Source of the DNA: Diogma glabrata
Taxonomy: Eukaryota > Arthropoda > Insecta > Diptera > Cylindrotomidae
Direction: 5' to 3'
DNA: 64,000 nt
NCBI GenBank assembly: GCA_963693315.1
Contig: OY856188.1
Location: 193,698,322 to 193,762,321 of the forward strand
The translations under genes were made by a program, and so were the position numbers. The notes under the pieces are model-generated. The model worked only from the letters and a program-made list of their open reading frames with translations, ran no database searches and was not told where the DNA came from. Below are positions 11,211-61,204 of the stretch, one piece after another (position 1 is the stretch's first letter; each line of letters begins with the position of its first letter).

Positions 11211-11224
11211 AAACTATTGTCACA

Positions 11225-14712: not shown

Positions 14713-14740
14713 ACCTAGGTACCTCTAAGCTCATTGATGA

Positions 14741-16924: not shown

Positions 16925-17047
16925 CTTAGGCCCAGTGGCGTAGCTAGCATGGGTGGCACCCGGGGCGGATATTGTGGTGTCACCCCAAAAATAAAAACTG
17001 TCAATAATAATAAAAAGCCGATAAACGTAATTTATAATTTTTTTCAA

Positions 17048-19420: not shown

Positions 19421-20039
19421 AAACCATTCTTTAGAAAGATGGCGAACATCACCTTTTATGTCTAACCCGTGTCTAGATACAGTAACAAACGACCCTTCTC
19501 TATTTTGAAAATGTTCACTTTCTTTTTTTATGATTTCAATGCGAACATGTATGTATGTAACCTACAAAAATTTGCAAAACTGCAGTAATTGCATAACTGC
19601 CATTTTATTATACAATAATTATTTTTGTGTCCATTGAAAAACGATCTATTTCAATTTATTCTTTGAGTTTCAAGATAAAGGAAAAAAAATTATTTTGAGA
19701 TCATTTACAAACACGGTAATTTGATTGTTTGTTAGTTTCCATATGTGTTTCCAGACCTGGTCATTAAATAATCATGCTTGCATACTAAATAATATATCGT
19801 AAAAAACGGTCAATATGGTATCTATAGGAATAATCAAAACTATTGAGTAATTGTGGTGATGGGATTCAATGCTCAACATGTTGATTCGATTAATATTGTT
19901 AAAATTTTATTTCACGTAATAACTCAAAAATTTTAAAAAGTAGAATAGATTCTTTTTGAACCAATAACACATTTATAGGACACATTTATAAGTTATCACA
20001 ATTTATAAATTAAAATTATATGGATAACCTGGTTAAAAT

Positions 20040-20740
20040 GGTTTCTAAGTGATTTATCGTTGAAAACATGTGATGGTTTGTTTAAGTTTTTTACGTTCGG
20101 GTGTCACCCCAAAACGGTTTCGAAGTGATTTATCGTTGAAAACATGTGATGGTTTGTTTAAGTTTTTTACGTTCGGGTGTCACCTCAAAACGGTTTCGAA
20201 GTGATTTATCGTTGAAAACATTGTGATGGTTGGTTTAAGTTGTTTACGTTCGGGTGTCACCCCAAAACGGTTTCGAAGTGATTTATCGTTGAAAACATTG
20301 TGATGGTTTGTTTATGTTTTTTACGTTCGGGTGTCACCCCAAAACGGTTTCGAAGTGATTTATCATTGAAAACATTGTGATGGTTTGTTTAAGTTGTTTA
20401 CGTTCGGGTGTCACCCCAAAACGGTTTCGAAGTGATTTATCGTTGAAAACATTGTGATGGTTTGTTTAAGTTTTTTACGTTCGGGTGTCACCCCAAAACG
20501 GTTTCGAAGTGATTTATCATTGAAAACATTGTGATGGTTTGTTTAAGTTTTTACGTTCGGGTGTCACCCCAAAACGGATTCGAAGTGATTTATCGTTGAA
20601 AACATTGTGATGGTTTGTTTATGTTTTTTACGTTCGGGTGTCACCCCAAAACGGTTTCGAAGTGATTTATCGTTGAAAACATAAAACAGTTAAAAACGTA
20701 AAACAGTTTTTTACGTTCGGGTGTCACCCCAAAACGGGTG
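20040..20740. repeat. ~77-bp satellite inside the hAT element, ~9 units
   Basis: Nine occurrences of ACGTTCGGGTGTCACC at 76-78 base spacing. Each is followed by AAAACGGTTTCGAAGTGATT and TGAAAACAT..GATGGTTTGTTTA. The GGGTGTCACCCC core also forms the subterminal sequence next to both hAT ends, so the array grew from the transposon's own end. The last unit runs into the terminal repeat. Confidence 0.92.
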
Positions 20741-28880: not shown

Positions 28881-29135
28881 CTAAAAAAAAAAGTTGAATT
28901 TGCATCAGTTAATACATTTGAATGCTTTTAAATTTGTATTTGGTATTGTTAAAGGACATATGCCAAACAATCTGCGAAAACTTCTCACCACTAATAGAGA
29001 GTTAATTCAGTAAATTATTTGTGATATAACATCACCCCGATGGAAAATCTCCCATCAAGAATAATATAAGAACTGAATCTAAAAAATTATGGTGCAAATT
29101 ATGAAACTTTTTGCAATCCATACAATTTTAGAGCG

Positions 29136-29219
29136 ATCTAGTTTCGAACCAATGAGAAAATGAGAAAATTTTAAACTTTAAAAAAGTTTATCATTCTCAT
29201 CAGGGCTAGCCGACTAGAT
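29136..29219 (-). ncRNA. Hammerhead ribozyme motif, array 1 unit 1
   Basis: Intact CTGATGA and GAAA cores and GTC triplet. Stem II carries a ~8-base duplication (AATGAGAAAATGAGAAAA), making this copy 84 nt instead of 76. Confidence 0.8.
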
Positions 29220-29598
29220 AAACTCTACCAAAAAATGTCAACGCTAATGTATATAAACCAAAAATTAGGTTACAACACTAGCGAAGTGTAAAAACAAAAA
29301 ATTTACATAAACATACATTTAATAAATTCAGGTTTAGTCAATTAATTTCTCTGGTGATCACTGTTTTGTTATACTCTAGACATTCTAGTATTGAATAACA
29401 AACTTGTATCGGTGAGAGGAAGATGACTAGTCTTCACTTGTGTCTATTGACACATGATCAACAATTAATTCAGTAAATTATTTGTGATATAACATCACCC
29501 CGATGGAAAATCTCCCATCAAGAATAATATAAGAACTGAATCTAAAAAATTATGGTGCAAATTATGAAACTTTTTGCAATCCATACAATTTTAGAGCG

Positions 29599-29674
29599 AT
29601 CTAGTTTCGAACCAATGAGAAAATTTTAAACTTTAAAAAAGTTTATCATTCTCATCAGGGCTAGCCGACTAGAT
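29599..29674 (-). ncRNA. Hammerhead ribozyme motif, array 1 unit 2
   Basis: 76 nt, intact core, same layout as the motif described at 31646-31721. Confidence 0.85.
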
Positions 29675-30235
29675 AAACTCTACCAAAAAATGTCAACGCT
29701 AATGTATATAAACCAAAAATTAGGTTACAACACTAGCGAAGTGTAAAAACAAAAAATTTACATAAACATACATTTAATAAATTCAGGTTTAGTCAATTAA
29801 TTTCTCTGGTGATCACTGTTTTGTTATACTCTAGACATTCTAGTATTGAATAACAAACTTGTATCGGTGAGAGGAAGATGACTAGTCTTCACTTGTGTCT
29901 ATTGACACATGATCAACAATTAATTCAGTAAATTATTTGTGATATAACATCACCCCGATGGAAAATCTCCCATCAAGAATAATATAAGAACTGAATCTAA
30001 AAAATTATGGTGCAAATTATGAAACTTTTTGCAATCCATACAATTTTAGAGCGATCTAGTTTCGAATTGTATGGATTGCAAAAAGTTTCATAATTTGCAC
30101 CATAATTTTTTAGATTCAGTTCTTATATTATTCTTGATGGGAGATTTTCCATCGGGGTGATGTTATATCACAAATAATTTACTGAATTAATTGTTGATCA
30201 TGTGTCAATAGACACAAGTGAAGACTAGTCATCTT

Positions 30236-30982
30236 CAGCGTTGCCACTCAAAACAATTTAAATGTATCCAATTTTATAAAAAAATGTATCCAAATGTATC
30301 CACTTTTTTTAAAAAATGAAACATGATTATTTGATATTTCTAAAGGACTAATTACAATATATGTTTACTACAATTCAGTATCCTGATCACATTTATTTAT
30401 AATATAACAACAAAAAAATCACATTAATTCAAATTTTTATCTGATGATTTCTATATGTGTTTTATTTGATGAATAAATTCCATATACATTTTTTGCACAG
30501 TTTTTGTCACCTCCAAATATTTCTCTTTTTCCAGTTTTTTGTATGCTTAAAATGATTGTACTGCATATCCCATACTTATTTCAGACAATTGTATATGGTT
30601 TTCTTCATTTTCAAAACCTAGCTCATTTACATTCCTCAGATTTAAGAAACGATAAGGGTTTATAAAATTGTGTAAAATGATTTTTAAATCGACTTTTAAA
30701 TTATTAAAAAAAATGTGATCGATTTTCAAAAACTGTTTAAAATTAGTTACACTGCTCGCTAATTTCTGATACTTTTTCTTTCACAAAAAGAGAATAGACG
30801 AACAATATAACAAATTTCATAAACATTTTCAAAGTTTTTGGAAATCCAACACAGCTAAAGGCATATTAATAAAATGTATCCATTCTAGCAGTTTTGTGGT
30901 TTTTTTGTATCCAGTATCCATTTAATAAATTTTTCAAATAATGTATCCAAATGGATACAAATGTATCCAAGTGGCAACGCTG
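30236..30982. mobile_element. 747-bp hAT-type MITE inside array 1
   Basis: The ends CAGCGTTGCCACT and AGTGGCAACGCTG are exact inverted repeats with a perfect 8-bp duplication GTCATCTT at 30228-30235 and 30983-30990. AAATGTATCC motifs cluster in both subterminal regions, as transposase-binding repeats do in hAT elements. A 60-codon minus frame (30547-30729) may be a transposase remnant, but I cannot place it. It inserted after the repeat unit had formed. Confidence 0.9.
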
Positions 30983-31190
30983 GTCATCTTCCTCTCACCG
31001 ATACAAGTTTGTTATTCAATACTAGAATGTCTAGAGTATAACAAAACAGTGATCACCAGAGAAATTAATTGACTAAACCTGAATTTATTAAATGTATGTT
31101 TATGTAAATTTTTTGTTTTTACACTTCGCTAGTGTTGTAACCTAATTTTTGGTTTATATACATTAGCGTTGACATTTTTTGGTAGAGTTT

Positions 31191-31266
31191 ATCTAGTCGG
31201 CTAGCCCTGATGAGAATGATAAACTTTTTTAAAGTTTAAAATTTTCTCATTGGTTCGAAACTAGAT
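31191..31266 (+). ncRNA. Hammerhead ribozyme motif, array 1
   Basis: 76 nt, intact core. It is the first motif in the inverted half and lies 3' of the hAT MITE. Confidence 0.85.
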
Positions 31267-31645
31267 CGCTCTAAAATTGTATGGATTGCAAAAAGTTTCA
31301 TAATTTGCACCATAATTTTTTAGATTCAGTTCTTATATTATTCTTGATGGGAGATTTTCCATCGGGGTGATGTTATATCACAAATAATTTACTGAATTAA
31401 TTGTTGATCATGTGTCAATAGACACAAGTGAAGACTAGTCATCTTCCTCTCACCGATACAAGTTTGTTATTCAATACTAGAATGTCTAGAGTATAACAAA
31501 ACAGTGATCACCAGAGAAATTAATTGACTAAACCTGAATTTATTAAATGTATGTTTATGTAAATTTTTTGTTTTTACACTTCGCTAGTGTTGTAACCTAA
31601 TTTTTGGTTTATATACATTAGCGTTGACATTTTTTGGTAGAGTTT

Positions 31646-31721
31646 ATCTAGTCGGCTAGCCCTGATGAGAATGATAAACTTTTTTAAAGTTTAAAATTTT
31701 CTCATTGGTTCGAAACTAGAT
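31646..31721 (+). ncRNA. Hammerhead ribozyme motif, type III layout (reference copy)
   Basis: Layout: stem III 5' strand ATCTAGT (31646-31652), cleavage triplet GTC ending at C31653, palindromic stem I GGCTAGCC (31654-31661), core CTGATGA (31662-31668), stem II region 31669-31711 closed by G-C, core GAAA (31712-31715), stem III 3' strand ACTAGAT (31715-31721). Stem III is 7 uninterrupted pairs including the required A15.1-U16.1. Stem II begins GAATGA against TCATT..TTC and contains a TAAACTTT/AAAGTTTA hairpin. All invariant core bases are present. Cleavage after 31653 would cut tandem transcripts into 455-nt pieces. Activity is inferred. Confidence 0.87.
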
Positions 31722-32100
31722 CGCTCTAAAATTGTATGGATTGCAAAAAGTTTCATAATTTGCACCATAATTTTTTAGATTCAGTTCTTATATTATTCTT
31801 GATGGGAGATTTTCCATCGGGGTGATGTTATATCACAAATAATTTACTGAATTAATTGTTGATCATGTGTCAATAGACACAAGTGAAGACTAGTCATCTT
31901 CCTCTCACCGATACAAGTTTGTTATTCAATACTAGAATGTCTAGAGTATAACAAAACAGTGATCACCAGAGAAATTAATTGACTAAACCTGAATTTATTA
32001 AATGTATGTTTATGTAAATTTTTTGTTTTTACACTTCGCTAGTGTTGTAACCTAATTTTTGGTTTATATACATTAGCGTTGACATTTTTTGGTAGAGTTT

Positions 32101-32176
32101 ATCTAGTCGGCTAGCCCTGATGAGAATGATAAACTTTTTTAAAGTTTAAAATTTTCTCATTGGTTCGAAACTAGAT
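32101..32176 (+). ncRNA. Hammerhead ribozyme motif, array 1
   Basis: 76 nt, intact core, exactly 455 bases after the previous motif. Confidence 0.85.
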
Positions 32177-32555
32177 CGCTCTAAAATTGTATGGATTGCA
32201 AAAAGTTTCATAATTTGCACCATAATTTTTTAGATTCAGTTCTTATATTATTCTTGATGGGAGATTTTCCATCGGGGTGATGTTATATCACAAATAATTT
32301 ACTGAATTAATTGTTGATCATGTGTCAATAGACACAAGTGAAGACTAGTCATCTTCCTCTCACCGATACAAGTTTGTTATTCAATACTAGAATGTCTAGA
32401 GTATAACAAAACAGTGATCACCAGAGAAATTAATTGACTAAACCTGAATTTATTAAATGTATGTTTATGTAAATTTTTTGTTTTTACACTTCGCTAGTGT
32501 TGTAACCTAATTTTTGGTTTATATACATTAGCGTTGACATTTTTTGGTAGAGTTT

Positions 32556-32631
32556 ATCTAGTCGGCTAGCCCTGATGAGAATGATAAACTTTTTTAAAGT
32601 TTAAAATTTTCTCATTGGTTCGAAACTAGAT
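32556..32631 (+). ncRNA. Hammerhead ribozyme motif, array 1
   Basis: 76 nt, intact core, 455 bases after the previous motif. Confidence 0.85.
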
Positions 32632-33003
32632 CGCTCTAAAATTGTATGGATTGCAAAAAGTTTCATAATTTGCACCATAATTTTTTAGATTCAGTTCTTA
32701 TATTATTCTTGATGGGAGATTTTCCATCGGGGTGATGTTATATCACAAATAATTTACTGAATTAATTGTTGATCATGTGTCACAAGTGAAGACTAGTCAT
32801 CTTCCTCTCACCGATACAAGTTTGTTATTCAATACTAGAATGTCTAGAGTATAACAAAACAGTGATCACCAGAGAAATTAATTGACTAAACCTGAATTTA
32901 TTAAATGTATGTTTATGTAAATTTTTTGTTTTTACACTTCGCTAGTGTTGTAACCTAATTTTTGGTTTATATACATTAGCGTTGACATTTTTTGGTAGAG
33001 TTT

Positions 33004-33079
33004 ATCTAGTCGGCTAGCCCTGATGAGAATGATAAACTTTTTTAAAGTTTAAAATTTTCTCATTGGTTCGAAACTAGAT
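33004..33079 (+). ncRNA. Hammerhead ribozyme motif, array 1, last
   Basis: 76 nt, intact core. It lies 448 bases after the previous motif because of a 7-base deletion outside the motif. Confidence 0.85.
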
Positions 33080-33329
33080 CGCTCTAAAATTGTATGGATT
33101 GCAAAAAGTTTCATAATTTGCACCATAATTTTTTAGATTCAGTTCTTATACTAATAGAGAGATTCATCAAAATAACACAAGAAGAACAAGCTACAGACCT
33201 CCACTTTATAAAAAGTTGTATTCGCAAAAATCCATAATCTATAAAGGCTTTAATGAGTTCAATAAGATGATGGAATATTATAGCCAGCATAATTTCCAAT
33301 CACTGATAAAAAATAAATTTAATATGCTA

Positions 33330-33529
33330 CCCAAGTATAACAAAATGGAACTCAAATTTGAGTTCCATTTTTTTCTTCCGTTTGAATTTGAAGTCAACTT
33401 CATTGTTCCAGATGTTCCAGATTTTGGCGACAAATTTAATACAATTTATTAACTTAAGTTGGAACTCAAAACTTAGTTACGGATTAAGATCCAAAAAATT
33501 GAACAAAAATAGAAATAGTGATACTTGGG
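33330..33529. mobile_element. 200-bp Tc1/mariner-type MITE
   Basis: Inverted ends CCCAAGTAT (33330) and ATACTTGGG (ending 33529) with TA at 33328-33329 and 33530-33531. Removing it restores the LINE frame. It contains a perfect palindrome around GGAACTCAAATTTGAGTTCC. Confidence 0.75.
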
Positions 33530-33566
33530 TATGTAAACAATGCGTTGAAAATCAAATACCGATATA

Positions 33567-34430
33567 AAAATATATTTAAATTTCAAATTTAAGTTACTTA
33601 AAATTAATTAAAATTATTTTCGAAATAAAAACAATTTAATTGTTCTTTTATTATATTAACTTTCGATTTAATTGTATGACAATTTGCATTCCAAATTGTA
33701 ACCCCCAAAATTAATATAACAAGAGAGACGCCATTACATAAAAAAAATTTGGACAACGTAGACCCGAAGCATTCTATTATTGTTTACATTGATTTTATGT
33801 GGTTTTCTTTTGACTTTTCTAAATCAATTTATAAATTCGGGTCTGAAAAGAACAAAAAACAAAAGGTGATGTGAAATATGTTTGTATTAGTGATATTTAA
33901 ATGGCGGTTGTCTACTTTTAAATTTGAAAAATTTCGTATAATAGCATATTATGCAATTGCGTATTGAAATATTTATATTAGTTTCCATTAATTTGTAAAT
34001 AAAATAATTTTGTTTTATTTATCCATATTTGTTTTCAATTTAAATTACTTCATTTTAGAGAAAAGCGTCCTCGTTCTATTCTATGATGCATCTTTTTTCA
34101 TCCACCCAATGAAATATAATATTTTAATTCTAATAAATCCATTTTAGAGTTTTTTTTTTTATTAGGAGTTATTTTATTAAATGTTAGTTACATTATATTG
34201 TATATATAATACAAAACACAATAATTAATTCTTCAAAATTAAACAATTCATAGTTATATAAAAATTGTCGTTAACAAAACGTTTATTTTTTAAATTTTTT
34301 TTGTTAATATTAGTAATGTCAAAAAAATTTACGAAAAAATGCACATTTTTTTTTTATGTAAATCGGAAAAAAAATTGATATTATTACTTATGATAAGAAA
34401 TTTCATCCTGTATATGTTTTTGGTAATTTT
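33567..34430. other. AT-rich DNA, no feature seen
   Basis: Homopolymer-rich sequence; I see no coding or repeat signal. Confidence 0.5.
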
Positions 34431-34645
34431 TACACGTCATTATCACACACTTCATATTTAACGTTTTATTCGTTTGAACCGTTATTTGAATCAGGAAATG
34501 TCATCATTTAATTAATTCAGTAAATTATTTGTGATATAACATCACCCCGATGGAAAATCTCCCATCAAGAATAATATAAGAACTGAATCTAAAAAATTAT
34601 GGTGCAAATTATGAAACATTTTGCAATCCATACAATTTTAGAGCG

Positions 34646-34720
34646 ATCTAGTTTCGAACCAATGAGAAAATTTTAAACTTTTAAAAAGTCTATCATTCTC
34701 ATCGGGCTAGCCGACTAGAT
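34646..34720 (-). ncRNA. Hammerhead motif with broken core, array 2
   Basis: Here the core reads CCGATGA: the U after the first C of CUGAUGA is missing (CATCGGG on the plus strand instead of CATCAGGG). U4 is lost, so cleavage is expected to fail or be poor. The rest of the motif is intact. Confidence 0.8.
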
Positions 34721-34872
34721 AAACTCTACCAAAAAATGTCAACGCTAATGTAAATAACCAAAAATTAGGTTACAACACTAGCGAAGTGTAAAAACAAAAA
34801 ATTTACATAAACATACATTTAATAAATTCAGGTTTAGTCAATTAATTTCTCTGGTGATCACTGTTTTGTCAT

Positions 34873-35131
34873 TGTTTGAGATAATAATTTTCAGTTTAAT
34901 TATTATCTAAACGAAACTCCGGATTGAATTATTTTTATTACAAGATAATTTATTTAATTAATAAATGTAATTCAATTAATCACTAACAAATTTAAAATTC
35001 AAGAAAAAACGTGACTTTCTTTTAAGAAGCAAAAACAGAAGGAGAGATTATATGATTTTGACATTTTAACCTTAACTCAGCAGAACAGCAATATAAAATG
35101 ACTATAGTAGAGAGAACGCCATCTATCAACA
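34873..35131 (-). repeat. Copia 3' LTR
   Basis: 259 bp. On the minus strand it starts TGTTGATAGATGGCG and ends CTCAAACA. It matches the 5' LTR along its length. Confidence 0.95.
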
Positions 35132-35141
35132 CACCTCCTCA
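35132..35141 (-). promoter_or_regulatory. Copia polypurine tract
   Basis: The minus strand reads TGAGGAGGTG directly before the 3' LTR. It overlaps the end of the gag-pol frame. Confidence 0.8.
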
Positions 35142-38100
35142 ATTTAGATTCAGCTCTGCTCTATGTTTCATAAACAAATTTTTTCCAAGAGCTTTTGTCA
35201 TCACGTCTGCTGACTGATTTTCGGACGAGACCTTCTTTAATTCTAATTTTCCTGAAAAAACTTGCTCTCGCAGAAAATGGAACTTCACATCAATGTGTTT
35301 ACTCCTTTTTGTTTCGGACTGACTGGCCACTTGAATGCATCCAGCATTATCTTCAAATAATGGCATTGGTAATGGCACTTCGATTTTTAGATCACAAAGT
35401 ACCTTGTGCAACCAAATCATTTCACAGGTAGCACTTACAGCAGCAACATATTCTGCTTCACAACTTGAAAGTGTGACTATCGGTTGTTTTCGACTTGACC
35501 ACATCACGGTGTTTTCCAAAACCTTCAGAATATAACCAGTGGTTGATTTTCTGTCAGTAGGATCATTTGCCCAATCGGCATCAACAAATCCAACAATCGC
35601 TATCGGATTTCCGGTTTTCTTATACACCAATCCTAGGTCAATTGATCCCTTCACATAACGAACGATTCGTTTTAGATAGTTCCAGTGATTTTCCGTTGCA
35701 TTATCTTGAAAACGACTCAAGTATCCCAATGCATAACAAATATCTGGTCGTGTTCCCAACATTAAGTACATGAGCGACCCAATTAATTCACGGTACGGTT
35801 GATTTGTCTTTTCATGATTTATCGATCCACTCAATTTAAGATTTTGTTCCATTGGAGTAGAGATTTGATTACACGATTCGAAATCAAATCTTTTAAGTAA
35901 TCGTTCGACGTACTGTTGTTGATCAATTTTCAATTCACTTCGATCTTCATTGATTTTAATTCGCAGTCCCATGAAATTCTTTACCGTTCCAAGATCTTTC
36001 ATATTGAACTCATTCGACAATTTATCACGAATTTGATCCAACAACTTTACATTGCTTCCACAAAGCAACATATCATCTACATAGACGACCAAATATACGA
36101 CATCATCACCATAAAATACTGTGTACAAACAATAATCAGATTTTGACTGTTCAAATCCCAATTTCACCATGAAATCGTGAAATCGTTTGTTCCAACATCG
36201 AGGCGATTGTTTCAATCCATACAGGGATTTGCGTAATTTTAGAACACTTCCATTTTTAATATTTATTCCTTGTGGTGGTTGCAGATAAACATCTTCATGT
36301 AGGTCTCCGTTCAAGAACGCTGTTGTCACATCAAGGTGACGAAAAATAAATCCCTTTTGAATACCGATCGCAAGTAGAAGGCGAACAGTTGACATTCGTG
36401 CAACTGGTGCATATGTCTCAGAGTAGTCAATTCCCTTCTTTTGCATGTAGCCACGAGCCACGAGTCGTGCTTTGAATTGAGTTGGATTTCCGTTTTCGTC
36501 AAACTTTCTTTTGAAAATCCATTTCGTGCCAATTTTCTTCACGTTGCCAGGATCATCAACAACATCCCATGTTTTGTTCTCTTCGAGTGAACAAATTTCA
36601 TCATTGATTGCAGATTTCCATTGCATTTCATCTGATCTTCCTTTTACATCATCATACTTTGATGGAGCATCATTCACGACAGTTTCCACCATTAGAGCGA
36701 TGTAAATCTGGTAATCTTCTTGCCAAGCCGGTGGTTTCACATTACGCTGAGGTCGGTTAGAAATCACAGGTGCAGTCTCATCTTGAGAATTAAGATCCGC
36801 TTCAGAATCACCAGCGCTCGCATACTCATCGTCTGACACATTTGGTGTCACTGTGTGATCGTCGTTTTGTTTTTCAGATGTAACTTCAATTTTTACAATT
36901 CGAGATGGACGACTGAAATTTTCTTCGTTAAATTTTACATCGCGTGAAAACACTACTGTTTGTCTTTCAGTATCCCATAAACGATAACCGTTTATTCCAT
37001 AACCAACAAAAATATACTCACGTGCGCGATCATCAAGTTTCTGTCTTAATTGTTTCGGAATGACAGCAAATGCTTGACATCCAAACACCCTTAAATTCGA
37101 CAAATTTGGTTTCTGACCAAACCAAGCTTCGAATGGTGTTTTGCCTTCAATTGCAACTGTCGGACTACGATTCGTTAGATATACGGCAACATTCAATGCT
37201 TCATTCCACAAACATTTTTCAAGACCAGCATCCAACAACATGGCACGGGTTTTTTCAGCTAGCGTGCGATTCATGCGTTCTGAAACTCCATTTAGTTCCG
37301 GTGTGTAGGGCGGTATGAACTCGATTTTTACACCAGTTTTCACACAAAACTTCTTTAAATCATTACTTCGATATTCACCCCCATTATCACAACGTAATCG
37401 CTTCATTTTGACATTGAAGTGTGTAGTTGCCATCGCGTGATATTCGAGAAACTTCTCGACTACTTCATCTTTGGATTTCATCAAGTACACAACGGTCATA
37501 TGTGTGTAGTCATCTATGAATGTGACAAAATACTTGTCACCGTCAACACTAGCAGGAGTTATTGGTCCACACACATCAGTATGAACGAGCATTAAGGGTC
37601 GTTCCGATCTTGATCGTGTTTTTAAAAATGGTGGGCGACACATCTTTGCTTTTGTGCATTCAACACAGAAAGGCAAAACAGTAGATATCGCATCCGATAC
37701 ACCAGTTACCATATTTTCCTTCACTAGTTTGCATACGTTATTCATTTGCAAGTGACCAAGTCGCCGATGCCAAATTTCATTTGCATGCATTTGCGTCATC
37801 GACACATGAATGTCAGCTTCACTTGTCACATTGATTTTTAACCAAAATATGCCGTTTAACATTTCAGCCTTCGCAAAAACTTCACCATTGTACGATATCT
37901 CCGCAGTATTTTCATTAAAATTAACACGGTTACCCTTCTCGGTTAATCGTCGTACTGAAATTAAGTTGTGTTTCAAACCAGGTACATAAATTACACCATT
38001 CAATTTTACATTCACCTCCCCTCCATTGACATGGGTGGTACCATTTAGAAAACCTCCCCTGGTTGCAAGCAATTTCTCACCATCCTTCGCAATTGTGATG

Positions 38101-39011
38101 CTAATAGGTGTCTGAAGTTTACTTGAGCATGTCATTAAATTTTCATCATTGATCATATGCTCCGAACAGCCAGAATCAAGCACGAACAGCGATCCTTCGT
38201 CTTGAGTTTTTGTCGATATCATTGAAAAAGCATTATTTTTCTGTGTATTCGCTATTGATGCACTTCCACCTGAAGCGCCACTTTGCTTCTTGGGACATCC
38301 ATTCTGCAAATGATTTGGTGAACCACAGGTATAACATCTTCGTTGCGGTTTACTTTCATTTTTCTTCTTTTTCCTTGTCGAATTACTTCTATTCGTATTC
38401 ATTGCAATAGAACCTGCTTCATTGTTTACAACAACGGTTGACTTTTGAACGAGACGTACCTCCTCTTCAAGAAGTCGAGTTTTGACCTTCGTTAACGTGA
38501 GATTATCTTCATCAAGTGTTTCCAGTGCCGAAATTACTGGACGATACATCTCTGGCATGAGAATCATTAAACGAACAATCACATTACTGTCATCAAATTT
38601 TTCGCCTGCATTTTTTAATTCACGAATTAAACGTTCAAATCTGGTGAAAAATGACAATAACTTTTCATTTGCTTCAAGCTTCAAATTGTGCAATTCCAAT
38701 GTTAGATAAACTCGCTTTGCAATACTTGGCCGGTTGTATGTATTGTTGATTTTTTGCCACATAGCATAACTTGTTTTACATTCGCGTGTAATCTCAAGTA
38801 AATCATCACTAATACTACGAATCACCAACGACTTTGCTGTACGGTCTTTCTTTAGCCATTCTGGTTTGACAATTTCTGTAGCTTCCGGTTCTGTTGTCAC
38901 TAAATCGAGTAATTCCTTTTCCGAAAGTATAAATTCCATGCGATATGCCCATTCTGTGTAATTTGAACCATCAAATTGCTTAATTCCCAATTTTTCAACG
39001 TTATCAGCCAT
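35139..39011 (-). CDS. Copia Gag-Pol polyprotein, 1290 aa, intact
   Basis: This is a single frame from ATG at 39011 with no stops. Gag (residues 1-200) has a UBN2-like capsid block. The zinc knuckle CYTCGSPNHLQNGC is at 226-239. The aspartic protease active site DSG is at 279. The pre-integrase HRRLGH is at 415-420. The integrase triad is D479, D542, E578. The RT has D894 (HLDVTTAFL) and YVDD at 977-980. RNase H has D1144, E1185 or E1187, and D1221. All catalytic residues expected of Ty1/copia pol are present and in order (PR-IN-RT-RH). Length is normal for one-frame Copia elements. The protein would assemble particles, copy the RNA and integrate the DNA, so this copy may be autonomous. Confidence 0.97.
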   Translation of the reverse strand: MADNVEKLGIKQFDGSNYTEWAYRMEFILSEKELLDLVTTEPEATEIVKPEWLKKDRTAKSLVIRSISDDLLEITRECKTSYAMWQKINNTYNRPSIAKRVYLTLELHNLKLEANEKLLSFFTRFERLIRELKNAGEKFDDSNVIVRLMILMPEMYRPVISALETLDEDNLTLTKVKTRLLEEEVRLVQKSTVVVNNEAGSIAMNTNRSNSTRKKKKNESKPQRRCYTCGSPNHLQNGCPKKQSGASGGSASIANTQKNNAFSMISTKTQDEGSLFVLDSGCSEHMINDENLMTCSSKLQTPISITIAKDGEKLLATRGGFLNGTTHVNGGEVNVKLNGVIYVPGLKHNLISVRRLTEKGNRVNFNENTAEISYNGEVFAKAEMLNGIFWLKINVTSEADIHVSMTQMHANEIWHRRLGHLQMNNVCKLVKENMVTGVSDAISTVLPFCVECTKAKMCRPPFLKTRSRSERPLMLVHTDVCGPITPASVDGDKYFVTFIDDYTHMTVVYLMKSKDEVVEKFLEYHAMATTHFNVKMKRLRCDNGGEYRSNDLKKFCVKTGVKIEFIPPYTPELNGVSERMNRTLAEKTRAMLLDAGLEKCLWNEALNVAVYLTNRSPTVAIEGKTPFEAWFGQKPNLSNLRVFGCQAFAVIPKQLRQKLDDRAREYIFVGYGINGYRLWDTERQTVVFSRDVKFNEENFSRPSRIVKIEVTSEKQNDDHTVTPNVSDDEYASAGDSEADLNSQDETAPVISNRPQRNVKPPAWQEDYQIYIALMVETVVNDAPSKYDDVKGRSDEMQWKSAINDEICSLEENKTWDVVDDPGNVKKIGTKWIFKRKFDENGNPTQFKARLVARGYMQKKGIDYSETYAPVARMSTVRLLLAIGIQKGFIFRHLDVTTAFLNGDLHEDVYLQPPQGINIKNGSVLKLRKSLYGLKQSPRCWNKRFHDFMVKLGFEQSKSDYCLYTVFYGDDVVYLVVYVDDMLLCGSNVKLLDQIRDKLSNEFNMKDLGTVKNFMGLRIKINEDRSELKIDQQQYVERLLKRFDFESCNQISTPMEQNLKLSGSINHEKTNQPYRELIGSLMYLMLGTRPDICYALGYLSRFQDNATENHWNYLKRIVRYVKGSIDLGLVYKKTGNPIAIVGFVDADWANDPTDRKSTTGYILKVLENTVMWSSRKQPIVTLSSCEAEYVAAVSATCEMIWLHKVLCDLKIEVPLPMPLFEDNAGCIQVASQSETKRSKHIDVKFHFLREQVFSGKLELKKVSSENQSADVMTKALGKNLFMKHRAELNLN

Positions 39012-39020
39012 CTTTTACTG

Positions 39021-39037
39021 AGCTGGGGTCCACAACC
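39021..39037 (-). promoter_or_regulatory. Copia primer-binding site
   Basis: Just inside the 5' LTR the minus strand reads GGTTGTGGACCCCAGCT. It resembles the GGTTATGGGCCCAGT site of Drosophila copia, which is primed by an internal piece of initiator tRNA-Met. Assignment by analogy. Confidence 0.65.
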
Positions 39038-39296
39038 TGTTTGAGATAATAATTTTCAGTTTAATTATTATCTAAACGAAACTCCGGATTGAATTATTTT
39101 TATTACAAGATAATTTATTTAATTAATAAATGTAATTCAATTAATCACTAACAAATTTAAAATTCAAGAAAAAACGTGACTTTCTTTTAAGAAGCAAAAA
39201 CAGAAGGAGAGATTATATGATTTTGACATTTTAACCTTAACTCAGCAGAACAGCAATATAAAATGACTATAGTAGAGAGAACGCCATCTATCAACA
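39038..39296 (-). repeat. Copia 5' LTR (promoter side)
   Basis: 259 bp; drives the minus-strand gag-pol. No TATA box could be pinned with certainty. Confidence 0.95.
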
Positions 39297-39527
39297 GTCA
39301 TACTCTAGACATTCTAGTATTGAATAACAAACTTGTATCTGTGAGAAGAAGATGACTAGTCTTCACCTGTGTCTATTGACACATGATCAACAATTAATTC
39401 AGTAAATTATTTGTGATATAACATCACCCCGATGGAAAATCTCCCATCAAGAATAATATAAGAACTGAATCTAAAAAATTATGGTGCAAATTATGAAACA
39501 TTTTGCAATCCATACAATTTTAGAGCG

Positions 39528-39603
39528 ATCTAGTTTCGAACCAATGAGAAAATTTTAAACTTTAAAAAAGTTTATCATTCTCATCAGGGCTAGCCGACTA
39601 GAT
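39528..39603 (-). ncRNA. Hammerhead ribozyme motif, array 2
   Basis: 76 nt, intact CTGATGA and GAAA cores, GTC triplet and stem III. Confidence 0.85.
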
Positions 39604-39981
39604 AAACTCTACCAAAAAATGTCAACGCTAATGTATATAACCAAAAATTAGGTTACAACACTAGCGAAGTGTAAAAACAAAAAATTTACATAAACATACA
39701 TTTAATAAATTCAGGTTTAGTCAATTAATTTCTCTGGTGATCACTGTTTTGTCATACTCTAGACATTCTAGTATTGAATAACAAACTTGTATCTGTGAGA
39801 AGAAGATGACTAGTCTTCACCTGTGTCTATTGACACATGATCAACAATTAATTCAGTAAATTATTTGTGATATAACATCACCCCGATGGAAAATCTCCCA
39901 TCAAGAATAATATAAGAACTGAATCTAAAAAATTATGGTGCAAATTATGAAACATTTTGCAATCCATACAATTTTAGAGCG

Positions 39982-40057
39982 ATCTAGTTTCGAACCAATG
40001 AGAAAATTTTAAACTTTAAAAAAGTCTATCATTCTCATCAGGGCTAGCCGACTAGAT
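39982..40057 (-). ncRNA. Hammerhead ribozyme motif, array 2
   Basis: 76 nt, intact core. One stem II base differs (TAGACTTT for TAAACTTT), which keeps a G-U pair. Confidence 0.85.
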
Positions 40058-40435
40058 AAACTCTACCAAAAAATGTCAACGCTAATGTATATAACCAAAA
40101 ATTAGGTTACAACACTAGCGAAGTGTAAAAACAAAAAATTTACATAAACATACATTTAATAAATTCAGGTTTAGTCAATTAATTTCTCTGGTGATCACTG
40201 TTTTGTCATACTCTAGACATTCTAGTATTGAATAACAAACTTGTATCTGTGAGAAGAAGATGACTAGTCTTCACCTGTGTCTATTGACACATGATCAACA
40301 ATTAATTCAGTAAATTATTTGTGATATAACATCACCCCGATGGAAAATCTCCCATCAAGAATAATATAAGAACTGAATCTAAAAAATTATGGTGCAAATT
40401 ATGAAACATTTTGCAATCCATACAATTTTAGAGCG

Positions 40436-40511
40436 ATCTAGTTTCGAACCAATGAGAAAATTTTAAACTTTAAAAAAGTTTATCATTCTCATCAGGGCTA
40501 GCCGACTAGAT
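40436..40511 (-). ncRNA. Hammerhead ribozyme motif, array 2
   Basis: 76 nt, intact core, 454 bases after the previous motif. Confidence 0.85.
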
Positions 40512-40889
40512 AAACTCTACCAAAAAATGTCAACGCTAATGTATATAACCAAAAATTAGGTTACAACACTAGCGAAGTGTAAAAACAAAAAATTTACATA
40601 AACATACATTTAATAAATTCAGGTTTAGTCAATTAATTTCTCTGGTGATCACTGTTTTGTCATACTCTAGACATTCTAGTATTGAATAACAAACTTGTAT
40701 CTGTGAGAAGAAGATGACTAGTCTTCACCTGTGTCTATTGACACATGATCAACAATTAATTCAGTAAATTATTTGTGATATAACATCACCCCGATGGAAA
40801 ATCTCCCATCAAGAATAATATAAGAACTGAATCTAAAAAATTATGGTGCAAATTATGAAACATTTTGCAATCCATACAATTTTAGAGCG

Positions 40890-40965
40890 ATCTAGTTTCG
40901 AACCAATGAGAAAATTTTAAACTTTAAAAAAGTCTATCATTCTCATCAGGGCTAGCCGACTAGAT
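40890..40965 (-). ncRNA. Hammerhead ribozyme motif, array 2, last
   Basis: 76 nt, intact core, with the TAGACTTT stem II variant. Confidence 0.85.
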
Positions 40966-41500
40966 AAACTCTACCAAAAAATGTCAACGTTAATGTATAT
41001 AACCAAAAATTAGGTTACAACACTAGCGAAGTGTAAAAACAGATTTTTAGATTCAGTTCTTATGTCATCATTTACATTGATGATATTTTAATTCCAACGA
41101 TATCAATAGATGAACATTTTGAAGCATTACGCAGTCTTCGATTTGTTTAGAAAAAAGAGAAAAAATAAAGATTCATTTGATGCAAAACGAAAACCTGCAT
41201 ACGAATATAAAGTAGGTGAGATAGTTTTAATAAAAAATATCACCAATGAAACAGGTCTTAGTCAGAAGTTTTTACCTAAATATAGAGGTCCGTATACAGT
41301 CACTGCTATACTAACAGGCGACATGTTTGTTATTGAAGATTTACCTGGGCAAAGGCTCTCGAATAAACCATTCCATGGTGTGTTCGCCGCTTTTAATATG
41401 AAACCATTTAACAGAAAACACGATTATGCAATCGAGGACGATTGTTGTGTCAGAATGGTGTCAGAATAGTAACCTGAGTTCTAATAAATTTAAATAAATA

Positions 41501-42705: not shown

Positions 42706-43311
42706 AGAAACCCTATTTACCAAGGAGACCAAACTGCTACTTCTTTTCTACGATAGAAGTTATTCCTTTTTTGTATTGTGGTTCAAAGAATAATAGCTCA
42801 ACTGTCGAGATTCAAACGAATTTAGTACTCTTTAAAACAGTCATTTCTAATTTTTCCAAGATTTTTCTTGAGAAAATCAATTTAATTTTTTTATTATTTA
42901 ATAACTTATTTCTTCAGTTTTATGCTTTTTATTGTGATTGTTAGATTTAAAAGGTAAAAATCTGTATTAAATTTTTTAACAAATATGGATTATAAGCCCG
43001 TTTACACAGAAAATTTAGTACAACTTATCTATTCTAGCCAGCTTCACATCAATTCTTATGTCAAAAAAAAATTCTGTTATTCTCTACTTTGTAGTTGTCA
43101 AAATTTCATAAACACAAAAGTGAAATAAAAAAATTGTTTTTCTTTGTTATACGAAATAAAAAGTAAATATATTGTTATAAACGATTGTGTTGAATTGTGA
43201 AATATTATCAATAATAGTTTTAGCTATAGTGATTTATGTAAATAATAACATAATGAAGGAATATTTACTTTAAAACAATAGAGAATAAAGTGAGGTTATA
43301 TATTTAATATA
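42706..43311 (+). promoter_or_regulatory. Upstream region of Smg1
   Basis: About 600 AT-rich bases between the repeats and the Smg1 ATG must hold the 5' UTR and probably the promoter. I see no convincing TATA box or initiator. An in-frame TGA lies about 21 bases before the ATG, so translation cannot start further upstream without splicing. Confidence 0.4.
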
Positions 43312-46300
43312 ATGAGCTCAATAAATGTCAAATTTAAAAATAAAAATAATTCTAACGATGAACTTGATTTTCCAAAACTAGGAACAAGTTTGGCTAAAGA
43401 CAAAGAAATGTTAAGTTTGGATAATGAGAATAATATTACTAAACTGGCGCGGAATCATAATAGTTTTTATAATTCAAATACAAAGGTCCGCAATATGTCA
43501 AGGTATGATAATGATTCGTGTAAAATAACAGGATCAAACGAATCGTTGATTAATTTAGGTGGGCATAGTAAAATGAGTCTAAGTAGTATCAATTTACCAG
43601 AGGATATGAGAATATCGAAATTGTTGAGACGATTAAGTTTGGAAACGAATTCACAGAATGCGATTGATTTATGTAATAAATTGAAGGTTGTCGTTTGTGA
43701 TTCAGCTAATGCGAGTTATGTAAGGAAATCATTTGATATATTAGCTGAATATATTATTTCAATTTTTAAAAATGGATCATCAGAATATTTGGAACATGTT
43801 GCCCAGGTTTTTGGAAAAATGGGATATGTTGCAAGAAATAATTTTGGTGTATATCAAAGCTGGATTCTGAATAATTATAAACCGCAAAAAAATTTACAAA
43901 ATTATTTGATGATGTCGTTTCTTGAAACTTTTCGTTTGGATGAAGAAACATTGGGATTACACTCAATGGCTACTAAATTGTTAGCGCATTTGAAACGATT
44001 TTTAGAAAATGCAAACACAGCGGACTTGTTTATACAAATTATGAAACTTGTTGAGCAGATTACAAATAACTACCCCGATTCGATTGATGAGTATTTCGGT
44101 GATTATGTTGATATTGTTGTTGGTTGGCATATCGGAGATAACAAAGTTGTGAAATCACATTGCAGTCGGTTTTTACAATGTTTTAAGCATATTTGGCAAG
44201 CTGACGCTAAATTTACGTTGCAGTTGTTGAATCAATTTCTTGAAGATATTGAATTTGAATGTAACAACGATGAACCGGAGAAGTCGTTTGGATCATATGT
44301 TAGCACATTCAACACGGTTTTAAAATGTGTGTTTCAATCACCAGAGTTTTTGGTGTTTTTTGTCGGAAAAGATATGATGGCTGAAAGTTTCAATAAAATT
44401 ACAATGGTTGGTGGTGGGATTCTCGTAACATCATTTGATGAGGAAGTAATTATGTCGATAAATGAATTTTTTTTAATAATTCTTAACTGTTATTCACATG
44501 ATTTGAATATAGATCATGAAATTCTTTTCAATATGATATATTTACAGTTAAATAATGTTAAATATTTTACAGACAATCAAATTCTAAGTTTATTGATTGT
44601 CATACTTAAAACTGTTACAGAAGTGAAAAATCATATAACCGTTGAGTTTTTGAAAAAGATTTTAAACAAAAATAATTTAAATTTTATAAAATTTTATAAA
44701 AGTAAAAAAATTCAAAAATCGTTGATACAAATTTATCATGAGATTTTGAATTTAAAAAAAATCGAACTTTTACAAGAAACTTATCGAATGATTTTGGATG
44801 ATTTGGGCAATGCGATTAAAACATTACCAGAAACTGAATTGATTGAATGGAATATCGATGAAAAAGAGAAAATCGAATATTCAATAAATCAATCAGAGTT
44901 TCTAATTAATTTCTATTTAACAACAATTTCAAATTTAACAACAACAAATAATTCCATAATTGTTATGTTCTCATTGAATCCAACCATTTTGGAACTTCTT
45001 GCCATCAAATTACATCCAACAAATTTCAAAATATGGAAAAATTATAATTTAATTCATTTTTCGATATTAAAATTATTATTCTTACATTGTCGTAAGAATA
45101 ATAATTTCATTCCATCCAGTAATTTGTTGAAGGGCTTAGAAACGAAACTGGATCATGATGATAATAGTTTTAGTCCAACTTCCCAACATTTTGAAATTAT
45201 AATCAAATTTCTTTCAGAAATTTTGAAAATTAAATTATGTTCTGATCGTTTGAATTTGATATTGGATTACGTTTTTTTCCTATTTCAACAAATATCAAAA
45301 TATTCGAATATCTTAAAAAGTAATATGAATTTCGGTTTGATTGTTAAGAATTTGAATAAAATTTCGATTACGGTTACATTACCCGAAGACACGATGGTCA
45401 AATGTATTGATTGCATCGATTTAATTCTAACCACATTTGAAGATATAAATCCGGAACTATACCAATCAATATCAGAAGTATGTTGTATACAAATGTGCTC
45501 AACAAATCTAACTATTCGTGAAAAGTATTCCTGTATTTTTGCAAAACTGCCATTAGAATATTCGTTACAACAAGCTAACGAACCAACTGGATTAAATTTA
45601 GAATTTTCAAACCATATTTTGGTGCTTCAACATTGGATGATAACAAATCAAACAAATATCGGTGAGATTCGTCCCGAATATTTCGCTGAATTTATAAAAA
45701 AAATTGAATTTTCACGAAATTCAGAATTTATCGAGACTTATATGTTGGAAATATTTCAAAATTGTTGGTACCAATCAAATTTCAAGGCATCGGAATTTTC
45801 AAAAATCGCTATAAAAGATTTACGTTGTTTAATTGATTGGGCGCAATGGGAAACAGCACAGTTTTGTGTTAGTAATAAATTAAAAACATCGTTGGGAAAA
45901 GCACAGGATACCTTTTTGAAAATTGAATCGATTATCAAGGAGGATGCTAGAATATTAGCGCTAAAGGAACATAGTCCGACAGATAATTTAAAATCCTTGC
46001 TAGCCAATCAAAAACAGGCAAGGACTTTATTAGGATTTTTAGAGACATTGGAAAAACTAATTTATAACGCTGCTAAAGGAACAGCATTTTCTATGCATTG
46101 CCCAGACAAAATTGTACGAACCTTTTTTCGTGTGAATTCAGGAACATGTGAAGAATGGTTTAATCGTATACGACCTGCAGTAGATCTTGTGGCATTACAT
46201 TGCATGGAACCGAATATGGTTATTCGATACACGGAAGAAATACTAAAACGATGTGTCAAATCGAAACGGATTAATGATAATTTGTTCGAGGAAACGTTGA

Positions 46301-48977
46301 TGTCACACGCTTGGGCGTTATGTCGAAACGGAGAAAGTGATTCATTGTATGGATTATATGCATGGGCGAAAAAAATAACAAACCGAAAAATTTTATGGAT
46401 AAAAATGGTCGCCGAAGTGGCAATCGGAAGACGGGAATCAGCCGCTGAAGGATTTATTTCAATTCTCAACTCTGAAAACTGTCCAACAAGTCAAATTATA
46501 AAAGAATTTATTTTCGATCAAATAATTCTATGTTTAATGTTTACATTCGACATGGTGAAAATAAAAGAACTTTTATTAAACGAAGAAAAATGGTTTTCAC
46601 CACGTATAACAATTCCGATTTATACAATGACTGTAAAACAAATTGATGCTATAATCAAATTTACGACCGATAAAGAACCTAGTTTATTGGAATTATCCAA
46701 CTGGCAATCCCTAGAAACTGAATCACATGCAAATTTTTCTTACTATCAACTTATCTCATTTGCAGAAAACACAATCGATCACACAATCCTGACAAAAAAT
46801 TCCGAAATCGATGATAATTTAATCAAAAAAAATTTTGATATTATCCAAAACTGTCTTCAGGAATGTATTCGAACAAAATCCAAAGAACATCTAAATAACT
46901 TAATAATCTTAAACCATGTCTGGCATAAAGTTGTCAACAAACAAATCTACAACTGTTCAAATAGTGATAAAACATTTGAAATAAAAAAAGATTATGGTTC
47001 CGTTACATTAATGAGACTTCTCAAATGGTCAATATTTCTCGATAAAATGACTCAAAATGGTATACAACAACAAGTAACAGATATACGTTTAGATATGTCA
47101 TCGATGGCAAGAAAGGAGGGAAACTTAAATTATTGCACATCGGAATTAAATTTATATTTCGGAAATTCAGACTACGCAAGGGAGAATAACTTAGTTGGTA
47201 AGTTAACAGTTGATTTAATTCAAGAAAAGTTTATTCAGGAATCCTACATTAACGACATCACTATTTGGAATGAGACACTATCACGAGCATTGTATGAAGC
47301 GTGTAAGTTAACATATTGTTTCCCGAATAAAAAAAATAATGCAATTCAATTAGCTGCAGCGATATCGATGGGAATATCTAATCGTTTGAAAATCAAAAAC
47401 ACAGAATCTTCTGATCTAAAAGAACAAGCATCAAGAGTTCTTTTGACTTTATCTGAATGGTTACAGTTCGAAGCTGATTCACATATTACCGAGAAGAAAT
47501 CAACTCTTGGTTTGCTACTTTCATCTATTTCCGAAATAAAAGAAGAATCGAACGAGTTAACTCCGACAATAATTCCATTAATCGAACGATCAATCGGTAA
47601 ATTAATTCACGAAGGAGTTAAACAGTGTCCTAATTTGGCTAAAGCATGGGCATCATTCGGAAACTGGTGTTATAAATGGGGACGGAAAATGGTTGAAATA
47701 CGAAATGAGGATAACGATAAGGCTGGACTACGTTCCACGGATGTAATTCAAATTTCCAATTTAGTCCCACATGCAACAAATATTGATATCGAAAAAATTG
47801 TTGACATATTAAATCATCATCACGTAATCGCAGAAGACGAAGACATCGATCCAAATGAAATGAGTTCAACCGAAATGATTGAAAATGAATTAAGAAGTTT
47901 ACCGATTCTCTCAAATCAACAACAAGAACATTTACATTCGATTATCGATATTTGGAGACAAGCACATAAATCAGTTTACAGTTATTATGAACTGGCAGCT
48001 GATGCATATTTTAAATTTCTTCAGCTTACAACAACAACTGAAAATGATCGCGACGATAATGTATCATGTACGAATGTAACCGCAACACTTCGACTACTAC
48101 GTTTAGTAGTAAAACATGCTTTAGGATTACAAGAAGTTTTGGAAGAAGGATTAGCCACCACTCCCACCGTACCATGGAAAGCAATCATCCCACAATTGTT
48201 CTCCCGAATGAATCATCATGAGCCGTACGTACGACGTAGAATGTCCGAACTAATTTGCCGTGTTGCCAAAGATGCGCCACATTTGATTATATTCCCAACA
48301 GTTGTTGGTGCTATTCATGGAGTAAAAAACGATCTTGCTAATATATCTATGCCATCATCAGATTTAGAAAATATTGATTTCAATACATCAAATGTCGATT
48401 CTGGTTTGGTTTGTTGTTTCAATTCACTCTTAGAAACGTTATCACAACAGTCTCCAGAAACAGTAAACCAAGTTCAACTGCTTGTCAGTGAGTTAAAACG
48501 AATTACGTTGCTATGGGATGAGCTGTGGTTGGTTACCCTCACCCAAATCTATTCCGAATGGTCAAAACGATTCACAAGCTTTGAACAATATATACAACGA
48601 ACAAAGGATTGTCAAGATCATTTAGTCGATGGAAAATATAACCTAATGATGAAACCCGTAATTTTTGTAATCGAACGATTATTTGAATTAACTTCACGAA
48701 AACCGGAAACTAATAATGAAAGTATGTTCCAAGAAAAATTTACGAAAATAATAGAAGAAACTATAAGAGATTTAAAAAATCCATTTGATGTTGATCGTCC
48801 GCATGTGACATGGGAGTCATTCAAGAAATTATATATGACATTACAACAGAAATCACAACGAAAATCATCGACTACATTAAAAATGATGGATATAAGCCCG
48901 GTGTTGGCACAACTTAAGGATACGGTTATATCGATGCCTGGTGTTGAAGTAACAGGAGAAGAACCGATTTATATCAA
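43312..48977 (+). CDS. Smg1: SMG1 PI3K-related kinase, exon 1 (residues 1-1888)
   Basis: SMG1 (NonC in Drosophila) phosphorylates UPF1 during nonsense-mediated mRNA decay. This exon is open for 1888 codons plus 2 bases and ends at AA|GTAAGT (phase 2). The start is the first ATG after an in-frame TGA. The protein is mainly helical-repeat (HEAT-like) in its first ~1000 residues and FAT-like later. The last ~30 residues (SPVLAQLKDTVISMPGVEV) are the segment just before the kinase in SMG1 proteins and identify the family. The next exon continues the match in phase. The long uninterrupted frame amid transposons argues for an active gene. No truncation was seen. Confidence 0.93.
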
Positions 48978-49950
48978 GTAAGTTTACTTTTTAATATATG
49001 TTTTGAGGCAAAATAAGCGTTATTCGTTAGCGTTTAAACACTATTTTTAGATATGGTAGGGAGGTAGGTTAGTACGAATGAGTTTACATTGTGACCATAT
49101 TGTTAAAAAAAATATCAGTCTCTAAATTTAAATTATGACCTGAAATTTTTTAAATAAATTAAATAAATTCATCAGGGTTATCTCTAGTCAATTTATCTAT
49201 TGATTAATCTCTGTCAGTTAACAATATAAATAATTCAATTTATATGAACTATGAATATTGCAATTTAAGTAAAAGTGGGTATGTGTAGAATCTGGTCCAC
49301 AACATTCGTTGCCCCTATAAAGATGTTGGTTACACAAAATTTCAATGTATAATACACAGACGACTTTTTATTACATATTTACATTTTATAATGCAGTTTT
49401 TACTGATTGTTGTTATTCTAACGATAGATTTGTTTATAGGTTTAGGTTGTTAACTTAACGCCGAACTCTTTCGGGATTTCACCCGCAACTATTAACCTGA
49501 AATAAATTTCAGTTATCAAAGATCCTCAACGCGCGTTAATTGCATCTGAATTTCCGTCAATTTCTTTCGCTCTAAACAGGAAGCACAATTTTGGATTGAT
49601 ATTGAATGCTAAGAATTTATTTGTGATTTCAATCATGTGTGGAGTAAATAGTAATAGTGTTCAAATAATGTGAAATGCAAAGCCTTAGATGTTTTTTTCG
49701 TCGCGTTTCGTCGAACCGTTTACACTGGCATTTATATAGTCTGAATTCTGCAACTGCTTCCGATGCCTGATTGCCGCAAACAATAAATGAGTATATTTGG
49801 CAGCCTCCATGTTTTACTTAATTGGCCAATTTTAATAATCAACTTGGTTCTATAATAAGTGGCTCTTGTGGTTCATTTTAAAGTAAACGTGAACCATAAC
49901 GCAAGTAAAGATGTTGTTATTTGTAAATAAGTTATATGGTTTTTATTACG

Positions 49951-59359: not shown

Positions 59360-61204
<1,845 letters not shown>

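Follow-up and report, generated by a model that had tools for sequence, protein, structure and literature searches.

How does a short tandem repeat that encodes no protein come to be inserted at many sites of an insect genome? This question is raised by a 64,000-nucleotide stretch of the dipteran Diogma glabrata (Cylindrotomidae; assembly GCA_963693315.1, contig OY856188.1, positions 193,698,322 to 193,762,321 of the forward strand), hereafter the window, which carries arrays of a 455-nt unit. An earlier note on this DNA had described two 455-bp tandem arrays, and these were recovered, with a period of 454–455 in Tandem Repeats Finder. The note had further placed a self-cleaving hammerhead ribozyme in every full unit. 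We consider it likely that the arrays represent a non-coding, non-autonomous element of 455-nt units, mobilized in trans by Penelope-like elements (PLEs) and inserted as tandem copies, probably via circular RNA. The best reading is an element with the mode of action of a Penelope-type retroelement and the build of an animal retrozyme, in which no ribozyme could be demonstrated. The pattern first noticed was real, but its interpretation rested on the weakest feature of the unit.

Arrays with this period were located at 29002–30066, 30983–33150 and 39297–41041 by Tandem Repeats Finder, and an additional piece at 34510–34872 was recovered by BLAST of the window with one unit (31440–31894). Unit position p corresponds to window position 31439+p, and the unit pieces were placed by BLAST, so their ends are uncertain by a few bases. 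These pieces belong to two insertions. Array 1 is a single insertion at 29002–33149 with its left part inverted, and array 2 is a single insertion at 34511–41063 that was split by a Copia element with a 1291-aa open frame, 259-bp long terminal repeats (LTRs) that are 100% identical, and a 5-bp target duplication, GTCAT. In both, a minus arm lies to the left of a plus arm, the left end falls at unit 416 or 417, and the right end falls at unit 352.

31440 to 31894, plus strand: reference unit, 455 nt, 29.7% GC.
28990 to 29001: left target-site duplication of array 1, ACTAATAGAGAG, from the flank sequence.
29002 to 30066, minus strand: minus arm of array 1, with its outer end at unit 416 (tail end).
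30067 to 33149, plus strand: plus arm of array 1, containing a miniature inverted-repeat transposable element (MITE), with its outer end at unit 352 (no tail).
30236 to 30982: later hAT-like MITE in the plus arm of array 1, not the element's own, with an 8-bp duplication GTCATCTT and ends CAGCGTTGCCACT and AGTGGCAACGCTG.
33150 to 33161: right target-site duplication of array 1, also ACTAATAGAGAG, from the flank sequence.
34500 to 34510: left target-site duplication of array 2, GTCATCATTTA, from the flank sequence.
34511 to 34872, minus strand: first part of the minus arm of array 2, with its outer end at unit 417 (tail end); it ends with the Copia target duplication GTCAT.
34873 to 39296, minus strand: later Copia LTR retrotransposon in array 2, not the element's own.
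39297 to 41041, minus strand: remainder of the minus arm of array 2, from BLAST of the unit.
41044 to 41063, plus strand: plus arm of array 2, only 20 nt, with its outer end at unit 352 (no tail).
41064 to 41074: right target-site duplication of array 2, also GTCATCATTTA, from the flank sequence.

No open frame of at least 120 aa was found inside either window array, nor did the arrays hold the single frame with reverse transcriptase and GIY-YIG endonuclease that marks an autonomous PLE. The element can therefore be at most a non-autonomous passenger of PLEs. The earlier reading of a mobile, RNA-copied sequence that lacks its own reverse transcriptase is supported, and its insertion anatomy, described below, is Penelope-like.

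Comparative analyses were extended to the whole genome (1.33 Gb, 1788 contigs), where the best 40 of 607 candidates were scored and yielded 224 unit matches; a sample drawn in this way favours near-identical copies. The 29 loci fetched were all the clusters outside the window among the matches listed, and with the window they provided 32 arrays. Two of these arrays, at 1173–4232 and 6804–9408 of locus L137, share their target duplication and represent a single insertion in two copies, which indicates a local duplication of the locus. The second L137 array was excluded from the counts of core variability, unit diversity and genome-wide variants and from the fair-coin estimate, and was included in the 28 arrays, the 58 inner arm ends and the variant class totals given below.

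A target duplication of at least 10 bp was observed in 28 of the 32 arrays (27 independent), with lengths of 11–14 bp and an AT content of 78%. All 28 had outward head-to-head arms, with one outer end at unit 350–357 and the other at unit 408–421, a spread that is partly due to letters shared with the target duplication. The end carrying the longer sequence, here called the tail, was on the left in 12 arrays and on the right in 16, and every insertion had exactly one tail (28/28). Under a fair coin for each insertion, this rule of one end of each kind would have a probability of 7.5e-9. Including one further array, L146, inverted arms were present in 29 of 32 arrays.

Inverted arms composed of tandem repeats might also point to ordinary satellite DNA or to a foldback DNA transposon, and the ends bear directly on this possibility. 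The two termini were never at an equal unit position (28/28), which means that the target is not met by a terminal inverted repeat. An arm can be as short as 20 nt, as in array 2, which does not suit a foldback element, and dispersed insertions with target duplications differ from the growth of a satellite. We regard this explanation as extremely unlikely.

Fixed starts adjoining the target on both sides indicate instead that both target strands primed the copying of plus-strand RNA, at sites separated by 64 nt. Both fall at helix boundaries, at the feet of a predicted branched stem-loop. When the region 31770–31870 was folded, site 352 (31791) was the last base of an inner bulge and site 416 (31855) was 2 nt beyond the foot.

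31792 to 31855, plus strand: 64-nt tail between the inferred reverse-transcription start sites, unit 353–416.
31778 to 31853, plus strand: predicted branched stem-loop with the start sites at its feet, from fold prediction.

In the mechanism that we propose, a PLE-like enzyme would cut the two target strands about 12 bp apart, and the 3' end of each strand would prime reverse transcription on plus-strand RNA, one at unit ~352 and the other at unit ~416, the two ends of the one predicted stem-loop. Synthesis would then run on over several units; the simplest way is to travel round a circular RNA that holds one unit, or sometimes two or three. With the two complementary DNAs joined head to head, the product would have inverted arms, a 64-bp tail at just one end and an 11–14 bp target duplication. 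More tentatively, a paired complex might grip one circular RNA at its single stem-loop, with one start for each target strand, and then roll round the circle; we place this version somewhat short of probable.

An alternative is twin priming by an enzyme of the long interspersed nuclear element (LINE) type, which here would act on a linear multimeric transcript. LINE twin priming likewise yields an inverted 5' part and target duplications of ~12 bp, and a LINE-like reverse transcriptase is present in the window. However, the second priming site of LINEs varies, whereas the ends of the element were fixed at two sites in 28 of 28 arrays, and no poly-A or other 3' tail was found. A linear multimer would also leave unexplained the variants, described next, that are fixed in all units beside 182 single-unit ones. 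Twin priming by a LINE-type enzyme is, in our view, very unlikely.

Variants within and between insertions provide information on the template of the Penelope-type copying that we favour. T at site 149 was restricted to the window's two arrays. Besides this site, there were 13 variant-by-insertion cases in which all informative units of the insertion carried the variant, with few or no occurrences elsewhere; 207G was common to two insertions, and 167A and 300A each recurred once in another insertion. Both arms agreed in the five cases that could be read in both: 207G in L151 (5 minus and 5 plus units) and in L157 (7 and 4), 163A in L152 (1 and 8), 390C in L153 (2 and 5) and 300A in L150 (3 and 1). 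The fixed variants of L154, L155 and array 2 were readable in one arm only. The unit-by-unit table further contained 182 single-unit variants and 10 mosaics, some of them periodic, such as the alternation G A G A G at site 238 of array 2 and changes in every third unit at 411 in L145 and at 230 in L155. The difference per site between units was 0.0029 within insertions and 0.0051 between insertions (206 units).

Ongoing homogenization would erase single-unit variants, and the fixed variants were therefore most likely already in the template. The pattern suggests that this template was most likely a single unit, copied repeatedly with both target strands as primers. A one-unit circular RNA would probably be the simple explanation of the fixed variants, and the periodic mosaics are what dimeric or trimeric circles would give. 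The earlier suggestion that 455-nt monomers could circularize gains from the variants, which point to a one-unit and probably circular template, while the hammerhead as the cutter of those monomers is not supported by the fold and Rfam analyses presented below.

The same variants could also arise if a Penelope-type insertion passed through a one-unit bottleneck in DNA, either as a circular one-unit DNA or as a homogeneous source array, rather than through circular RNA. Homogeneous source arrays exist, and most arrays carry just single-unit variants beside the family majority. A new variant would nevertheless first have to spread through the entire source array and appear in both arms, and the persistence of single-unit variants means that such spread is not seen after insertion; the periodic mosaics, too, fit multimeric circles. 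We consider a bottleneck in DNA rather unlikely.

In the reading of the earlier note, unit-length RNA would come from cleavage by the hammerhead-like motif. The motif, ATCTAGTC-GGCTAGCC-CTGATGA...C-GAAA-CTAGAT, was re-read in the window as the note had listed it, with 12 copies, 11 of them with an intact core, blocks in type III hammerhead order, canonical core letters and a stem III of 7 bp. One T of CTGATGA is gone from the copy in 34510–34872, and the leftmost copy has an 8-bp insertion.

31646 to 31721, plus strand: the hammerhead-like motif as it stands in the reference unit, with the cut predicted after 31653; the likeness is probably due to chance.

According to this explanation, the element would be an animal retrozyme in which run-through transcripts are cleaved by the type III hammerhead of each unit and the resulting 455-nt monomers are ligated to circles. 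The letters of the motif speak for it, and so does the one-unit template, which was deduced independently from the variants. A descriptor of hammerhead order and stems, covering types I and III on both strands, matched 348 of 100,000 dinucleotide shuffles of the unit in any arrangement, and the observed stem total was reached in 32; this total is 14 in that run, in which a two-base loop was allowed, and 13 in a second run of 400,000 shuffles. Because the 12 copies are near-identical repeats, they count as one event in the chance estimate. The motif is thus rare for a single unit, and the descriptor had no match in the 57.7 kb of the window outside the arrays. No type I or II arrangement was found on either strand of the unit with one core mismatch allowed, and only the known motif was recovered; the non-circular permutations treated in passages of PMC10085705 lay outside this search.

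The fold of the motif argues in the other direction. Stem I, GGCUAGCC, can form either 2 bp closed by a loop of four bases or 3 bp closed by a loop of two, the latter too tight, and such a stem leaves no space for the loop contacts that are usual. Most of CUGAUGA and the following GAA were paired with UUCUCAUU in the best fold, and most of the CTGATGA core was paired in monomer, dimer and circle alike. The three stems of type III did not form a competitive fold: the hammerhead-constrained structure of the monomer was 12–13 kcal/mol (12.9) above the best fold, that of a dimer of two motif strands was 18.6 kcal/mol worse, and folding of the circular unit gave the two outer pairs of stem I a probability of 0.0017. 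Sixteen viral hammerhead candidates, our own pick from the best 40 of 159 descriptor matches and hence good by choice, had gaps of 0 to 0.8 kcal/mol. The 400,000 shuffles gave 2441 chance matches with a median gap of 17.2 kcal/mol (5th–95th percentile 10.0 to 25.4), and for the 228 with a stem total of at least 13 the median was 15.0 (7.8 to 25.8). In these fold predictions, the gap of the unit falls among the chance matches, unlike those of the viral candidates.

The covariance search that the note had proposed also gave no support, with no Rfam hammerhead at E<=10 in the array region. Run in the same mode on six viral control loci, Rfam listed a hammerhead in four (best E per locus 0.018, 0.00046, 0.21 and 1, all below the gathering level) and none in the other two. 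At the gathering level no hammerhead was reported in 20 viral loci, including L001 with several good descriptor matches; since that level misses candidates of the L001 type, a blank at this level for the window carries no weight. The families RF00008 and RF00163 had 0 matches in the Diogma genome but also 0 in 14 control genomes, which makes the result uninformative. As a separate observation, hammerhead candidates of very good quality occur in the viral contigs L001, L013, L053 and L104, with several each in L001 and L053, where the Rfam gathering level misses them.

Nor did the genomic copies show clear conservation beyond background, which the note had named as a test. Changes affected 4 of 2842 core letters and 387 of 73,775 letters in the rest of the unit, 180 of the latter at one site, and these counts suggest no clear constraint on the core. 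The type III core (CUGANGA, GAAA and NUH in order) was kept in 11 of 12 window copies and 196 of 200 copies read genome-wide, which shows little because the family is very young. A copy in L149, among these 200, is missing the four letters directly after the predicted cut and was counted as neutral. None of the 58 inner arm ends fell at unit 213–217, around the predicted cut; the nearest were at 204 and 224, and their scatter gives no hint of a linear RNA starting there. Some published observations speak for a hammerhead. Passages of the anole study describe a protein-assisted hammerhead in a PLE (PMC11167929), dimeric minimal hammerheads of other PLEs and, in passing, type III hammerheads in insects are mentioned in parts of PMC7761336, and plant and viroid type III hammerheads are reportedly blocked by complementary sequence (passages of PMC7229834). 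Taken together, the motif is most likely a chance look-alike and a poor candidate for cutting RNA to unit length, and we hold a retrozyme driven by this hammerhead to be quite unlikely.

Comparisons with known systems place the element, as the note had supposed, in the neighbourhood of PLEs and retrozymes, with Penelope-like anatomy and a retrozyme-like build but without the defining ribozyme. The sections of the anole study consulted report that the PLE Poseidon cuts and extends both strands, with two adjacent internal starts in a stem-loop whose interval equals the genomic tail (PMC11167929). Rotifer Penelope insertions are described in parts of PMC3846280 as carrying inverted repeats, one of which may bear a 31-bp tail, together with duplications of 8–10 bp and mostly head-to-head arms. 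As far as these excerpts go, the element shares with such GIY-YIG-bearing PLEs the two internal starts with the tail between them, the extension of both target strands, head-to-head inverted arms, tandem copies, AT-rich targets and duplications of similar size. Both marks of a PLE insertion, internal starts with a tail at one end and head-to-head arms with a target duplication, were found. The element differs from PLEs in that its 455-nt unit has no open frame, its tail is 64 nt compared with ~30–40 nt, and exactly one tail is present in 28 of 28 insertions, whereas the tail is optional in the PLE literature as far as passages of PMC3846280 show. In the literature consulted, which was not a full survey, no statement that every insertion must have exactly one tail was found.

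The unit also resembles metazoan non-LTR retrozymes, for which tandem units of ~150–450 bp, low GC and duplications of more than 4 bp are characteristic, with 455 bp, 29.7% GC and 11–14 bp in the element. In the relevant passages of PMC7229834, however, these retrozymes are defined by a type I hammerhead, which the unit lacks; it has a type III-like motif that fails the fold and Rfam tests. The element was therefore not classed as a retrozyme, since the defining ribozyme was tested for and not found. Plant LTR retrozymes, judged from parts of PMC7761336 and from what is generally held about them, share the type III motif order and the blocking by complementary sequence, whereas their LTRs, primer binding site, 4-bp duplications and Ty3-type mobilization do not fit the element.

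Minimal type I hammerheads of PLEs are said to act as dimers, in work ascribed to Lunse 2017 and Cervera 2014. The element would have in common with them a hammerhead-like sequence upstream of the start sites and a palindromic stem that could pair in a dimer. Those hammerheads, as partially documented, are of type I and without stem III, while the motif of the element is minimal in stem I and the unit has no type I candidate.

PLE genes are present in this genome. At least 150 GIY-YIG matches were obtained from the best 150 of 4129 candidates scored, several of them in inverted pairs or tandems by their coordinates, and a 620-aa frame on contig C598 (locus L178) combines reverse transcriptase (RVT_1) with GIY-YIG. 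On the same contig, six GIY-YIG matches ~2868 bp apart at 2654–17122 form a head-to-tail tandem of a Penelope-like element. The best similarity between the unit and a PLE locus was weak and AT-rich, with E 0.023 in one run and 0.001 in another, the latter outside the start region.

Several observations weigh against mobilization by PLEs as outlined here. No PLE helper was matched to the unit among 21 PLE loci, most of which covered only 3.2 kb around the endonuclease (1.5 kb either way). Four of the 32 arrays had no duplication of at least 10 bp; L134, L141 and L156 also had no inverted arm, and L146 had inverted arms but ends at 373 and 416. Some of the 10 mosaics are non-periodic (L137a, L146 and L156). 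The stem-loop is just modestly better than shuffles (z -2.42; 2 of 200 shuffles fold as well). All copies are near-identical, and the anatomy could reflect few source elements.

If the more tentative version with a paired complex is true, Penelope-type integration would necessarily, rather than optionally, leave one tail per insertion, and an animal would be forming RNA circles of unit length by some route other than a canonical hammerhead. The element bears on how PLEs finish integration and on why their copies come in tandem and inverted form, at times with a tail, when, according to part of the anole study, further steps of PLE integration are still to be validated (PMC11167929). The young family serves as a natural experiment, with 27 independent insertions, two identical ends and variants running through both arms, and it opens two claims to direct testing: that initiation is paired, at two sites on a single RNA, and that a circular template is copied in rolling fashion. 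The family also illustrates that the core letters of a hammerhead, even when correctly ordered and as infrequent as about 3 in 10,000 shuffles, are insufficient to call a ribozyme.

A few other candidate features of the unit were considered and rejected. An RNA polymerase III promoter was suggested by a B-box-like GTTCGAAAC, but the plus strand has no exact A box and there are eight runs of at least four T. Subthreshold matches to mir-1, mir-240, mir-249 and snoZ17 at ~30010–30100 correspond to the inverted junction of array 1. ARAGORN found no tRNA genes in the window, and exact patterns from the unit had 0 matches in viral contigs and prokaryote genomes.

The arrays lie among host genes and other repeats. 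The flank of array 2 at 41064–41480 contains, by eye, a Ty3-type-like fragment with a YIDD motif followed by an integrase-tail-like stretch. The host gene SMG1 occupies 43294–48981 (a 1895-aa open exon) and 59360–59779 (a kinase exon downstream), with retroelements between them. Upstream of the arrays, an AXH-domain (ataxin-1-like) open frame containing a run of unknown bases is located at 15670–16563; the AXH domain is not known outside animals, and this frame and SMG1 mark the host as one. A further tandem array with a 77-bp unit in 8.5 copies (96% matches) is located at 20035–20682.

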